From: an uncultured Pelagibacteraceae bacterium
GTDB taxonomy: Bacteria > Pseudomonadota > Alphaproteobacteria > Pelagibacterales > Pelagibacteraceae
Assembly: GCA_902579215.1 (NCBI GenBank)
Contig: CACHGH010000010.1
Span: 1 to 37,265, forward strand
DNA length: 37,265 nt
Reading direction: 5' to 3'
Part shown: in pieces, positions 4,226 to 16,739 of the stretch
How positions within the stretch are numbered: position 1 is the stretch's first letter
How the letters are laid out: every line of letters starts with the position of its first letter
Translations under genes and position numbers: made by a program
Notes under the pieces: model-generated
What the model saw: the letters and a program-made list of their open reading frames with translations, nothing else
Told to the model about the DNA's origin: nothing
The model's database searches: none

Positions 4226-4804
4226 ATGGATAAACCATCTATAAATATTATAGAATTTAAAGAACTTTACAATATTTTATTAGAGTTAAATTCTATTACT
4301 CATTTTAAAATAAATTATTACAACAATGAATCAGAAATTTTACAATTAGAAGAAAGCAAAAAAATTAACATAAATTATTCTACAATCATTTTAAAAAAAC
4401 CCTCTAAAAAAATTAATGAAAAAAATGTTATTGTATTTGAGAAACTTCCAAATAGAATTGACAAAATTCTAGATAAAATTAATATTCATTTGATAAAACA
4501 GAAGTACAATTTACAATCTAACCTAAAAATTGGTGAATATTCTTTAGATTTGAATTCAAGAACAATTTTTAAAAATCAAAAAAAATTGAATTTAACTGAA
4601 CGTGAAATAGATATTTTAATTTTTTTAAGCAAGCAAAAAGAACCACAAAAAATTGATACTTTGCAAAATAAAGTATGGAATTATTCATCAAATCTTGAAA
4701 CCCACACTGTTGAAACTCATATATATAGACTAAGAAAAAAAATTAAGGATACTTTTAATGATGATAATTTTATTATTAGTAAAAAAGATGGTTACATAAT
4801 TTAA
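4226..4804 (+). CDS. Orphan OmpR-type winged-helix DNA-binding protein
   Basis: This 192-residue protein has a C-terminal OmpR/PhoB-type winged-helix domain at ~100-192. It runs from IGEYSLDLNSRTIF through LTEREIDILIFLSKQ to the recognition helix THTVETHIYRLRKKIK (~159-174), then the wing IISKKDGYII. The N-terminal ~95 residues have the approximate size of a receiver domain but no recognisable acidic pocket or phospho-acceptor Asp context, and are Lys/Ile/Asn rich. It therefore looks like a degenerate, phosphorylation-independent regulator; no kinase gene is adjacent. The stop codon overlaps the start of the ArfA-like ORF (TAATG), implying co-transcription. Targets are unknown. Confidence 0.8.
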   Translation: MDKPSINIIEFKELYNILLELNSITHFKINYYNNESEILQLEESKKININYSTIILKKPSKKINEKNVIVFEKLPNRIDKILDKINIHLIKQKYNLQSNLKIGEYSLDLNSRTIFKNQKKLNLTEREIDILIFLSKQKEPQKIDTLQNKVWNYSSNLETHTVETHIYRLRKKIKDTFNDDNFIISKKDGYII

Positions 4805-4911
4805 TGAAAAAAAGAAATTTTATTGCAAAAGATTTGATGTCACAAAAATTTAAACCAAAAATAGTTAAACCTAAAAAAGGAAAAGGAAGTTTTAAAAGAC
4901 GCAAAAAATAA
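4804..4911 (+). CDS. arfA: ArfA-like alternative ribosome-rescue factor (35 aa)
   Basis: A 35-residue, strongly basic ORF starts in a TAATG overlap with the winged-helix gene. Its second half, KIVKPKKGKGSFKRRKK, matches the ArfA signature (RVEK-KKGKGSY-RK in E. coli). Its first half, AKDLMSQKFKPKI, lines up with the short helix of ArfA (ALL-DPLFRQRV). ArfA binds ribosomes stalled on non-stop mRNA, puts its basic tail in the empty mRNA channel and recruits RF2. This copy is shorter than E. coli ArfA and ends immediately after the basic tail. Its stop is 2 bp from the stop of the convergent kinase gene, with no terminator between. The motif match is clear for so short a protein; function is inferred. 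Confidence 0.72.
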   Translation: MKKRNFIAKDLMSQKFKPKIVKPKKGKGSFKRRKK

Positions 4912-4913
4912 AT

Positions 4914-5843
4914 TTATAGTCTAGCTCCAATTTGTTGGATTACTTTAGAAGACATTTCTGTCCCTTTTTCTAAACTTTCTTTAATTGATAAATTATTTAC
5001 ATGTCCGTGTAGAAAACCAGCAGCAAAAAGATCTCCAGCACCAGTTAAATCAATAATCTTAAGGTTTTTTTGAACACCACATTCAAAAACTTCATTTCCT
5101 TTTATGGCAATAGCACCATTTTCTCCTCTAGTCAGTACTATTAATTTACCAAGTTGTTTTGAAAAGTTTATAACTTCATCAAAATTTTGAGCATCAATTA
5201 AAGATGTAATTTCTTGCTCATTTGCAAAAGTTATATCTAATTTATTTTTAACTAAATCTAAAAAATGAGGTTTATGCCTATCAACACAAAACTGGTCTGA
5301 TAATGACATTGCAACTTTTTTTGCGCTATTAATTGCTTTCTCAAATGCTTTTTTTGGTTCACCTTCATCCCAAAGATAACCTTCAAGAAATATTATCTCA
5401 CTATTTTTAATCACATCAGAACTTACATCATTTTCATTTATTTTTCCTGCCGTACCTAAGAATGTGCACATAGTACGCTCTGAGTCTGGAGTGACTAGAA
5501 TTAAACAAGTGCCAGTTGGTAATTTCTCTTTTTTTTTAGAGTAAAAGTATTCTACATTTTCTTTCTTTAATCCATCTTCATATTTATCTCCAAGATCATC
5601 ATCACAAACTTTACCAATAAAGCCAACTTTATTTCCGAGCTGAGATAAACCTACTATTGAATTCGCTACAGAACCACCTGAGACAGTTTTTTCTATTTTG
5701 AGATTAGATAATAGTTTCTTGAATTCATTTTCATCAAAAATTAGTTTCATGGTGCTTTTTGTTAAACCATTTTGATTAATAAAATTGTCATCAACTTTAC
5801 AGATAACATCTACGATTGCGTTTCCTATCCCTAAAATTTTCAT
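4914..5843 (-). CDS. PfkB-family sugar/nucleoside kinase, adenosine-kinase-like
   Basis: This 309-residue protein belongs to the ribokinase/PfkB superfamily, which phosphorylates sugars or nucleosides with ATP in the cytoplasm. It begins with ILGIGNAIVDVICKVDD, has the substrate-binding GGSVANSIVGLSQLG (~56-70), the FIGKVCDDDLGD motif, and the C-terminal PfkB signature DLTGAGDLFAAGF (265-277) with the anion hole GAGD and catalytic base Asp271. The N-terminus and the GTCLILVTPDSERTM segment resemble alphaproteobacterial adenosine kinases, so adenosine salvage is the best guess, but substrate cannot be settled by eye. It is last in the minus-strand block; only 2 bp separate its start from the stop of nth. 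Confidence 0.85.
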   Translation of the reverse strand: MKILGIGNAIVDVICKVDDNFINQNGLTKSTMKLIFDENEFKKLLSNLKIEKTVSGGSVANSIVGLSQLGNKVGFIGKVCDDDLGDKYEDGLKKENVEYFYSKKKEKLPTGTCLILVTPDSERTMCTFLGTAGKINENDVSSDVIKNSEIIFLEGYLWDEGEPKKAFEKAINSAKKVAMSLSDQFCVDRHKPHFLDLVKNKLDITFANEQEITSLIDAQNFDEVINFSKQLGKLIVLTRGENGAIAIKGNEVFECGVQKNLKIIDLTGAGDLFAAGFLHGHVNNLSIKESLEKGTEMSSKVIQQIGARL

Positions 5844-14447: not shown

Positions 14448-16739
14448 TTAATTAGTTTTCTTTCCGTAATTTATTACTCCAGCAGAATAAGCAGCTACTG
14501 AAGCTAAATTTAATATTTCTGAAGTTGAGGATCTTAAAGGAGCAATTTCTATTGGTTGTCCTAATCCAATTAATAAAGGACCGATTACTTTTGAATCACT
14601 TAACGTTTTCATCATTTTATAAGAAATAGCTGCACTATGTTGTCCAGGCATAATTAAAATATTTGCATTACCAACTATTTCTGAAAAAGGATATAATTCT
14701 TTGTATGCTTCATCTAAAGCAACATCGGGCTGCATATCTCCATCGAATTTAAAATCAACATTTCTATTTTTTAATATTTCCACGGCATTTCTAATATGTT
14801 TAGTTCTACTAGTTATTGGTTGGCCAAATGTAGAATGAGATACGAACGCTACTTTTGGATCAAAACCAAACAATCTTACAACCCTAGCCGCTGATACTGC
14901 TATTTCTGCCAGCTGTTCAGAAGTTGGATATTCGTGGACGGTTGTGTCTCCAATAAAAACAGTTTTTCCCTTATTTACTACCATATTTAATCCAAACATT
15001 ATTTCACCGGGTCTAGAATCGATAACTTTGATTATTTTTTGAAAAGAAGTTCCGAATCTTCTTGTGTTACCTGTAACAGCTCCATCAGCATCACCGCAAG
15101 AAACCATACATGATGCCCAAATTACTCTATCATTTCTAACCATTCTATCACAGTCTCTTTGTAGAAGACCTTGTTCACGCTGAAGCTTTTCAAATAAAAA
15201 ATTTACATATTTTTCTCTTTTTTCTTTGTCATTAGAGTTCGTTATTTCAATGTTTAAATTTTCGCTATAACCTATATTTTTAAGCTGTTCCTTTATCTTC
15301 TCTTTTTTACCAACCAATATAGGAATTCCTAATTTACTATTTTTAAAAGCAATAGCAGCTTTCAAAGTATTTTCATCTTCACCATCTGCAAAAACAATTC
15401 TTTTTTGTGTTTTTTTAATTTGAGAGTTAATTCCCTGCATAATTGTTACAGATGGATCTAATCTTTGTTTAAGTTGATCTCTGTAGACATCAAAATCCTC
15501 AATTTTTCTTCTAGCAACACCACTTTTAATTGCTGCTTTTGCAATAGCCAGAGGTATTTCAGAAATTAATCTCGGATCGAAAGTTGATGGAATAATATAG
15601 TTTTTTCCATATTTAGGACGTTCTCCTCCCATTGCAGCCACAACTTCATCTGGTACATCTTCTCTAGCTAAAGTGGCTATAGAGTTTGCAGCAGCAATTT
15701 TCATATCTTCATTAATTGTTTTAGCCCTTACATCTAAAGCTCCTCTAAAAATATATGGAAATCCTATTAAGTTGTTTACTTGATTTGGATAGTCAGATCT
15801 GCCAGTTGCAACAATTGCATCATCTCTAACCTCTTCTACTTCTTCTGGAGTTATTTCAGGATCAGGATTTGCACAAGCAAAAATAATTGGATTTTTTGAC
15901 ATTTTTTTTACCATATCTTTTTTTAAAGCACCTTTTGAAGATAAACCTAAAAAAACATCAGCTCCATTAATAGCTTCGTCTAAAGTTCTTTTTTTTGTAT
16001 CAATTGCATAAGCTGATTTCCATTGGTTAAGATTATCTCTGCCTCTGTATAAAATTCCTTTACGATCAAGCATTGTAATATTATTTTTGTTGACCCCAGT
16101 TTTGGTAAATAAATTTGCACAAGCCATAGCTGATGCTCCCGCACCATTAATAACTACTTTTACTTCACTAATTTTTTTTTTAGAAATATCAAGTGCATTA
16201 ATTAATGCAGCACAAGTTATTATTGCTGTTCCATGTTGATCATCATGAAATACTGGTATATCTAAAATTTCTTTTAATTTTTCTTCTATAACAAAACAAT
16301 CTGGTGCAGCAATATCTTCTAAATTTATACCACCAAAACTTCCAGCTATATTTTTTATACTTTTAATGATTTCATTTGTATCTGATGAGTCAATTTCGAT
16401 ATCTATAGAGTTAATATCAGCAAATCTTTTAAACAACACTGCCTTACCTTCCATTACAGGCTTAGAGGCTAAAGCTCCCAAGTTTCCCATTCCTAAAATT
16501 GCAGAGCCATTGCTAATTACAGCAACTAAATTACCTTTGGTTGTGTAATCATAAGCACTATCAGGATTTTTAGAAATTTCCCTTACAGGCGCAGCAACAC
16601 CTGGGGAATATGCTAAAGCTAGATCCCTTTTAGTTGTCATAGGTTTAGAGGAAATTATCTCAATCTTGCCAGATTTATTATTATTATGAAATTCTAATGC
16701 TTCTTTATCTGTGTAATGATCAATTTTAGTTTTTTTCAT
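14448..16739 (-). CDS. maeB: NADP-dependent malic enzyme fused to a phosphotransacetylase domain
   Basis: This 763-residue protein decarboxylates malate to pyruvate with NADP reduction. The N-terminal ~425 residues are the malic enzyme: catalytic Tyr44 in ALAYSPGVAAP, GNLVAVISNGSAILGMGN, EDIAAPDCF, PVFHDDQHGTAI and the Rossmann motif VVINGAGASAMACANL. The C-terminal ~330 residues are a phosphate acetyltransferase-like domain (FADGEDENTLKAA, GDADGAVTGNTRR, GLNMVVNKGKTVFIGDT, IGLGQPIEIAPLRSS). In MaeB enzymes this domain is usually regulatory, sensing acetyl-CoA, not catalytic. The length matches the family. It converges on dolP with 5 bp between stops and is divergent from murJ. Confidence 0.95.
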   Translation of the reverse strand: MKKTKIDHYTDKEALEFHNNNKSGKIEIISSKPMTTKRDLALAYSPGVAAPVREISKNPDSAYDYTTKGNLVAVISNGSAILGMGNLGALASKPVMEGKAVLFKRFADINSIDIEIDSSDTNEIIKSIKNIAGSFGGINLEDIAAPDCFVIEEKLKEILDIPVFHDDQHGTAIITCAALINALDISKKKISEVKVVINGAGASAMACANLFTKTGVNKNNITMLDRKGILYRGRDNLNQWKSAYAIDTKKRTLDEAINGADVFLGLSSKGALKKDMVKKMSKNPIIFACANPDPEITPEEVEEVRDDAIVATGRSDYPNQVNNLIGFPYIFRGALDVRAKTINEDMKIAAANSIATLAREDVPDEVVAAMGGERPKYGKNYIIPSTFDPRLISEIPLAIAKAAIKSGVARRKIEDFDVYRDQLKQRLDPSVTIMQGINSQIKKTQKRIVFADGEDENTLKAAIAFKNSKLGIPILVGKKEKIKEQLKNIGYSENLNIEITNSNDKEKREKYVNFLFEKLQREQGLLQRDCDRMVRNDRVIWASCMVSCGDADGAVTGNTRRFGTSFQKIIKVIDSRPGEIMFGLNMVVNKGKTVFIGDTTVHEYPTSEQLAEIAVSAARVVRLFGFDPKVAFVSHSTFGQPITSRTKHIRNAVEILKNRNVDFKFDGDMQPDVALDEAYKELYPFSEIVGNANILIMPGQHSAAISYKMMKTLSDSKVIGPLLIGLGQPIEIAPLRSSTSEILNLASVAAYSAGVINYGKKTN

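Follow-up and report, generated by a model that had tools for sequence, protein, structure and literature searches.

A conserved minimal ArfA-family gene in SAR11 bacteria with a predicted role in ribosome rescue

A 35-Codon Gene Behind a Winged-Helix Gene

The window analyzed here, a stretch of 37,265 nucleotides from an uncultured Pelagibacteraceae bacterium (contig CACHGH010000010.1), carries a 35-residue open reading frame on the forward strand at positions 4804-4911, which begins with ATG, ends with TAA and encodes MKKRNFIAKDLMSQKFKPKIVKPKKGKGSFKRRKK. The features of this locus, with the evidence for each, are as follows.

4226-4804, forward strand: winged-helix gene (Trans_reg_C, PF00486), conserved upstream neighbor (Pfam, neighborhood)
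4802-4806, forward strand: TAATG, in which the winged-helix stop and the arfA start share one base (sequence)
4804-4911, forward strand: arfA-type mini-gene (PF03889 above gathering score, conserved, under purifying selection)
4816-4851, forward strand: residues 5-16 (N5 to F16), short helix region, counterpart of residues 14-25 in the RF2-activating part of Escherichia coli ArfA (alignment with E. coli ArfA chains, column counts, AlphaFold helix at 6-11)
4867-4908, forward strand: residues 22-35, KPKKGKGSFKRRKK, predicted mRNA-channel tail with KKGKGS and R32, the equivalent of E. coli R41 (profile, PDB alignment, column counts)
4914-5843, reverse strand: pfkB-family sugar kinase gene, convergent, conserved neighbor (Pfam, neighborhood)

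The one-base overlap likely couples translation of the winged-helix gene and arfA, and the winged-helix gene is the probable operon partner. On the other side, a gap of 2 nt separates the arfA stop codon from the convergent kinase gene. In the AlphaFold model (alignment A2; pTM 0.32) residues 6-11 form a helix and the tail is uncertain, a result compatible with the assignment below but not discriminating. The winged-helix protein has an OmpR-type DNA-binding domain at residues 119-190, and its N-terminal part had no Pfam match to a receiver domain.

Membership in the ArfA Family

A first-pass annotation, made from the sequence, had proposed an ArfA-like ORF of 35 residues with a ribosome-channel tail and pointed to a search with the Pfam model. 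The proposal is borne out by the ArfA family PF03889, which matches residues 11-35 at 28.8 bits (E = 8.5e-7), above the curated gathering score of 25.5; the ORF is the sole PF03889 match in its own genome at E ≤ 10. A phmmer search of the PDB returned six matches with six distinct sequences, all of them ArfA chains and all weak (E 0.09-0.23), and in the best alignments residues 4-34 pair without gaps with residues 13-43 of E. coli ArfA. Furthermore, a profile of 28 rows from which E. coli was excluded (profile A1) aligned with E. coli ArfA at a probability of 95.7 (E = 8.7e-9), ungapped across KKGKGS. Neither the window ORF nor any of ten further alphaproteobacterial proteins had a match in NCBIfam, and the window protein had no match to the Pfam family DUF7230 (PF23876) at E ≤ 10. 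By its sequence, the window ORF is a genuine, conserved, minimal member of the ArfA family.

Conservation and Selection in SAR11

Conservation was assessed in two samples of 147 genomes, one from the family Pelagibacteraceae and one from the order Pelagibacterales. PF03889 matched at E ≤ 0.1 in 111 of the 147 Pelagibacteraceae genomes, 81 of them above the cut-off. A match inside a 141-aa frame (genome G019) was discounted, leaving ArfA in 110/147 genomes, and the weak matches in G034, G135 and G024 were second ones in genomes already counted. In the subset with completeness ≥ 90% and contamination ≤ 5%, 42 of 53 genomes carried the gene. Purifying selection on SAR11 arfA is strong. In 32 disjoint pairs drawn from 89 sequences, the 30 core codons gave a dN/dS of 0.121 (bootstrap 0.092-0.158), and their substitutions were distributed 68/52/236 over the three codon positions. 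This conservation and selection refute a chance ORF as the general explanation.

Neighboring genes were read at 91 ArfA loci. Ninety were parsed, the motif rule leaving out one locus with PRKGKGS (L022), and 89 come from different genomes, a second copy from one genome (L146, same genome as L008) being left out of the counts. An upstream winged-helix gene with a measurable start was present at 83 of the 89 loci, and at 80 of these 83 arfA starts between -29 and +7 nt from the winged-helix stop; the distance at the other three is 54, 660 and 682 nt. With start codons picked by rule, the two genes overlap by at most four bases or abut at 43/83 loci. A pfkB-type kinase gene was present at 81/89 ArfA loci. 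Recurrence of the ORF, and of its place after the winged-helix gene, in other SAR11 genomes had been named in the first-pass annotation as a check on its proposal, and both were found. At six loci (L002, L003, L006, L011, L019 and L117) arfA lacks an adjoining winged-helix gene, which indicates that in some SAR11 lineages it has moved or been re-acquired. Outside SAR11, PF03889 matched above its cut-off in 5 other genomes among 289 searched in the class, and profile A1 matched 21 non-SAR11 genomes among 385 at E ≤ 0.01.

Reviews place ArfA in some beta- and gammaproteobacteria only (PMC8012679, PMC6881298), and Table 1 of a survey of 15,259 genomes gives arfA in 0 of 2,376 Alphaproteobacteria (PMC11633108). 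That survey relied on nucleotide profiles for annotated genes, an approach that may overlook genes this short. We found no report of a chromosomal SAR11 ArfA in the open literature; databases may already list the protein under its Pfam family. A chromosomal ArfA in most SAR11, which are among the most abundant bacteria of the sea, alters the picture of a family confined to the beta and gamma classes.

Residues Compared With Escherichia coli ArfA

Residue n of the SAR11 protein corresponds to residue n+9 of E. coli ArfA; the window ORF begins at the counterpart of position 10, spans 10-44, and has no counterpart of residues 1-9. In E. coli numbering, Asn14, Leu20, Lys33-Lys34-Gly35-Lys36-Gly37-Ser38 and Arg41 (SAR11 N5, L11, KKGKGS and R32) were invariant in all 89 SAR11 copies, the invariance of KKGKGS being partly by construction since part of the motif served to choose the rows. 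Positions 16 and 30 (E. coli Phe25 and Tyr39) were always aromatic. In the window protein, the KGKGS-type tail followed by an aromatic residue and the Arg41 equivalent reads KKGKGSFKRRKK.

In E. coli, Leu19, Leu24 and Phe25 of ArfA hold Trp319 of RF2, and the hydrophobic patch contacts RF2 residues Trp319, Phe217 and Val198 (PMC5378476). Replacement of Ala18 by Thr blocks RF2 activation (PMC5378476, PMC8012679). Among the 89 SAR11 copies the counterpart of Ala18 is Lys or Arg in 83, that of Leu19 is Asp or Glu in 79, and that of Leu24 is Lys in 84, and only Phe25 of the Leu19/Leu24/Phe25 patch keeps its counterpart. The small residue at Ala18 is thus replaced in most copies, and the window ORF lacks the N-terminal residues 1-9, which in E. 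coli fold back on S12 and h44. These are details of the E. coli structure and not of the definition used by Pfam, so their absence weakens the case for an identical mechanism but not for homology. With Ala18, Leu19 and Leu24 replaced, RF2 activation, if any, cannot use all of the same contacts. The suggestion that the N-terminal half is a shortened RF2-recruiting helix needs amending: residues 1-9 are missing in the window ORF, and Ala18, Leu19 and Leu24 are replaced in most copies. We favor a member of the ArfA family that probably opens RF2 in a modified way.

The likeness to E. coli ArfA (YhdL) accordingly lies in the ungapped match to residues 13-43, with KKGKGS, the aromatic residue before R41, Asn14, Leu20 and an aromatic residue at Phe25. 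The two proteins differ in size, E. coli ArfA having 72 aa (52-55 aa when mature; PMC6299226) and the SAR11 protein 35. About 47 residues are reported as needed and sufficient in E. coli, where C-terminal shortening past Asn47 inactivates the protein (PMC5378476), and the SAR11 ArfA is shorter than this.

Rescue Partners in SAR11 Genomes

The genome of the window (82.8% complete) contains SmpB, an alpha-type tmRNA and RF2, and RF1 was not found in it. Its RF2 scored 490.1 bits against TIGR00020 (cut-off 370) and keeps Trp319, a feature shared with the E. coli system, as well as Phe217, with Val198 changed to Ile. SmpB was detected in 124/147 Pelagibacteraceae genomes and alpha-type tmRNA in 116/147; within the subset of ≥ 90% completeness and ≤ 5% contamination, the counts were 52/53 and 50/53. 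Matches to PF00472 numbered at most two per genome except in G028, with three, consistent with RF1 plus RF2. One release-factor match lies within a 5,699-aa open frame (G008 contig 2, 72032-72364).

ArfB is present in 2,022 of 2,376 Alphaproteobacteria according to the survey cited above (PMC11633108). Its model scored above cut-off in 2 of 14 control genomes and in 0/147 from the Pelagibacterales, and SAR11 thus appears to have lost ArfB. The sub-threshold matches listed cover the GGQ part only (about 7-43 of 140 positions), mostly in frames of release-factor length, with one in a 145-aa frame (G180). ArfB was also rejected as an identity for the window protein, whose 35 residues have no GGQ motif, the ArfB model being above cut-off nowhere in the order sample. 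The earlier proposal that a streamlined genome keeps a backup to trans-translation fits these data, as ssrA and smpB occur in the same genome and ArfB scored above cut-off in none of the order. SAR11 ArfA would then be a backup retained in a strongly reduced genome where ArfB was not found.

Absence of a Non-Stop Hairpin

A hairpin renders the E. coli arfA mRNA non-stop (PMC8012679). Given the same treatment as the SAR11 copies, with z scores from mononucleotide shuffles, the E. coli gene showed a 45-nt hairpin of -24.3 kcal/mol (z = -5.1). Such a hairpin is absent from the SAR11 gene as a group: in 89 copies with 60 nt downstream, the best 45-nt windows had a mean z of -0.04 (sd 1.16), and z fell below -2 in two copies (L104, -2.2; L125, -5.0). 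In the window, the stretch at arfA had a z of -0.19 with only short, AT-rich inverted repeats, no terminator-like site was found there, and the stop codon directly follows the basic tail. The traits of a non-stop message (hairpin, RNase III site or terminator, hydrophobic C-terminal tail) were not found in SAR11. Unlike E. coli arfA, the SAR11 gene has an ordinary stop codon, lacks the hairpin and adjoins a winged-helix gene. Given z values near zero and no terminator-like site, SAR11 arfA is probably without E. coli-type feedback, as has been described for ArfT of Francisella tularensis (PMC6299226). The ordinary stop, the lack of an RNase III or terminator hairpin, and translation from the tail of the winged-helix gene point to a probable low-level, constitutive synthesis of SAR11 ArfA that is not confined to failures of trans-translation.

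Two loci from other Alphaproteobacteria carry long-form ArfA, i.e., with GKGS, with longer tails; one has a possible hairpin (L041, z = -3.1) and the other a z of -1.9 (L042). Given the possible hairpin at L041, some alphaproteobacteria may keep the E. coli-type control.

Predicted Mechanism and Alternative Roles

We consider it likely, from these sequence comparisons, that the window ORF encodes a minimal ArfA that is constitutively expressed and backs up trans-translation. The basic tail would enter the mRNA entry channel, which is empty when a ribosome sits at the 3' end of a broken mRNA, and the short N-terminal helix with the aromatic residue at position 16 would engage RF2 and help it to open. 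RF2 would then hydrolyze the peptidyl-tRNA, and the minimal ArfA would in this way back up tmRNA-SmpB in a lineage without detected ArfB.

Factors of similar type are known from other bacteria. BrfA of Bacillus subtilis, compared here by its published description, is likewise release-factor-dependent with a basic channel tail (PMC6881298) but has two N-terminal helices and non-stop control; its origin is disputed, being held separate from ArfA (PMC6881298) or homologous at 21.5% identity (PMC11633108). E. coli ArfA is reported to be inactive with the RF2 or the ribosomes of B. subtilis (PMC6881298). ArfT of Francisella tularensis is described as a protein of 40 aa with a basic tail including a KKGGSTNKK stretch, whose own mRNA is without non-stop control (no terminator or RNase III site) and which uses RF1 or RF2 (PMC6299226). 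The SAR11 protein resembles it in size (35 aa), in the absence of a hairpin and in the loss of Leu19, Leu24 and Ala18, and could be an ArfT-like factor that binds the empty channel as ArfA does and recruits RF1 besides or instead of RF2. We judge this unlikely, given that the SAR11 protein matches PF03889 above cut-off, a comparison in which ArfT enters through its published description alone, and that the RF2 of the same genome keeps Trp319 and Phe217.

Within the SAR11 protein, conservation is highest in the tail (KKGKGS and R32 in 89/89), and the activating part is altered, with no counterpart of E. coli residues 1-9 in the window ORF. A peptide that shares only the tail with ArfA, and that occupies the channel of vacant ribosomes but does not activate a release factor, for instance in storage or regulation, would fit this pattern. 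Yet the helix part also keeps N5, L11 and an aromatic residue 16 in 89/89 copies, which a mere tail would not need, and we regard such a peptide as very unlikely. The small size, the basic composition and the lack of an NCBIfam match could also be those of a decayed or spurious ORF with a chance likeness in a lysine-rich, AT-rich genome. A dN/dS of 0.121, presence in 110/147 genomes with hardly any second match, and the conserved place of the gene speak against this and make it extremely improbable.

A GKGS-Less Short Form and DUF7230

Many of the matches to profile A1 share a core of N-P-x-A-x-x-L-x4-F/Y-x-x-x-V/I and a K-K...Y-x-R-K tail without GKGS. This short form comprises ArfA relatives of 35-45 aa in ArfA-less SAR11 lineages and in other Alphaproteobacteria, with examples at the following loci.

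L169, 1462-1596, reverse strand: short form
L336, 1492-1626: short form
L338, 1510-1614: short form
L346, 1495-1623, reverse strand: short form

Twelve genomes that lack ArfA were inspected in the genus of the window. In the ten with a kinase match, the winged-helix gene abuts pfkB with no arfA between them, and two (G240 and G242) had no kinase match. One of the profile A1 matches of the short form lies in an ArfA-less, single-contig SAR11 genome (G003). A short-form profile was run on 40 genomes and, once enlarged, on the 147-genome sample of the order, where 79 genomes had the long form, 47 the short form, none both and 21 neither. The 47 comprise 5 genomes of the genus of the window, 2 of genus g5 and 40 of family f2. 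Where ArfA is present, what the short-form profile picks up is the arfA locus. The same limits of completeness (≥ 90%) and contamination (≤ 5%) leave 105 genomes of the order, of which 96 had exactly one form, none had both and 9 had neither, so ArfA is dispensable. The genomes without either form or an ArfB above cut-off that are at least 92% complete are G017, G026, G035, G074, G206, G240, G242, G052 and G149; SmpB and tmRNA were found in all five neither-form genomes within the family sample (G017, G026, G035, G074 and G052). Some matches were discarded: those of G150, G153 and G205 in frames of 366-371 aa, the second ones of G127 and G248 in 436-aa frames, and that of G026 (E = 0.026) in a 24-aa frame.

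A kinase tree was built from 91 loci, 20 of 111 being left out for lack of a full kinase in the fetched stretch. The ArfA label changes four times on it, at least three of the changes being forced by supported branches, and with four changes the six ArfA-less groups are not all independent. The short form occurs in three of these groups (a five-genome clade, g5, and f2 except G149); the others, with neither form, are G035 with G206, G026 with G074, and G017. The genomes being related, the substitution pattern amounts to a handful of lineages and not to 147 separate observations. Short-form genes occupy several different loci and are under purifying selection, with a ratio of 0.075 over 16 disjoint pairs in which some genomes occur twice.

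Profile-profile comparison of the short and long forms gave probabilities of 96.9-97.2 (E 1.8e-10 to 4e-11), and the score of 45.4 compares with at most 12.2 for 40 column-shuffled controls and 12.8 for a reversed profile. The short forms were found by an A1 search, and their likeness to A1 is therefore partly by selection. Support independent of that selection comes from DUF7230, from the column-shuffle control, from the substitution pattern and from E. coli ArfA alone, which the short-form profile matched at a probability of 63.5 (E = 6.8e-5) with a three-residue gap inside KKGKGS. DUF7230 (cut-off 27 bits) scored 42.8 at L166, 41.4 at L170, 27.8 at L338 and 27.0 at L339, these members belonging to other Alphaproteobacteria and one SAR11-family genus. 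L155 fell below both cut-offs (DUF7230 E = 3e-4, ArfA E = 0.04), and L169, L336, L160, L346 and L351 matched neither family in Pfam. DUF7230 shares the N-P-x-A-x-x-L...F/Y...K core but is without GKGS, and the window protein is not a member. A literature search on DUF7230 returned no paper.

The short and long forms probably belong to a common family, and the short form may likewise rescue ribosomes. More tentatively, the mini-ArfA and the GKGS-less proteins, including DUF7230, could together make up a single ancient family of alphaproteobacterial rescue factors that recruit release factors, its two forms replacing each other at different SAR11 loci without co-occurring in the 147 genomes of the order sample, with marine phages carrying the long form and the beta- and gammaproteobacterial ArfA as one branch; we rate this proposal as plausible, a little short of probable. 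If it is true, DUF7230 would be an unrecognized ribosome-rescue factor. Reviewers expect that more small rescue factors exist which escape sequence searches (PMC8012679). The GKGS-less counterpart in ArfA-less SAR11, a defined candidate family whose members replace ArfA in a genomic pattern, makes this stated problem testable.

ArfA Copies in Marine Phages

A tblastn search of phages with the 35-residue protein, a basic low-complexity query run with the filter on, found no match, and phage copies were therefore sought by profile and with longer viral proteins. The long form is common on viral contigs: at least 215 copies were confirmed among the 600 pattern matches listed, and several of the best 80 have additional sequence fused at the N or C terminus. 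Pfam placed ArfA above cut-off in all six longer viral proteins searched, with no other domain above its own cut-off. A search of PHROGs with ArfA returned weak, unnamed families only. Ten neighboring proteins from five viral loci were also compared with PHROGs; four matched (a clamp loader and an S6-modifying enzyme at L191, exonucleases at L249 and L184) and six matched nothing.

A PF03889-type match lies at 15786-15932 of pelagiphage HTVC027P (MN698241.1), whose gp30 is annotated as ArfA and is expressed during infection (PMC12753301). It shares with the window protein its PF03889 assignment and comes from a virus of SAR11, but it is phage-borne, and the account of gp30 in that paper does not speak of a chromosomal counterpart in SAR11. 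ArfA has also been reported in phage RXM (PMC8953757).

In three viral proteins of 138-163 aa (L189, 2887-3300; L204, 2989-3414; L232, 2935-3423, which reaches the end of its stretch) the ArfA domain is accompanied by a C-terminal stretch with ...NKAGNYTKPTMRK...QWSARKAQMLA..., and in L204 this stretch has matches among the hypothetical proteins of pelagiphages, roseophages and HMO-2011. Three others (L186, 2720-2920; L200, 2929-3096; L249, 2926-3132) carry a KWDGKSR-type N-terminal stretch before ArfA that has no Pfam match above cut-off. An unannotated ArfA-like stretch lies on the reverse strand of Caulobacter phage Cr30 (KF301602.1/NC_025422.1, 11145-11237), with 74% identity to viral ArfA over 31 residues.
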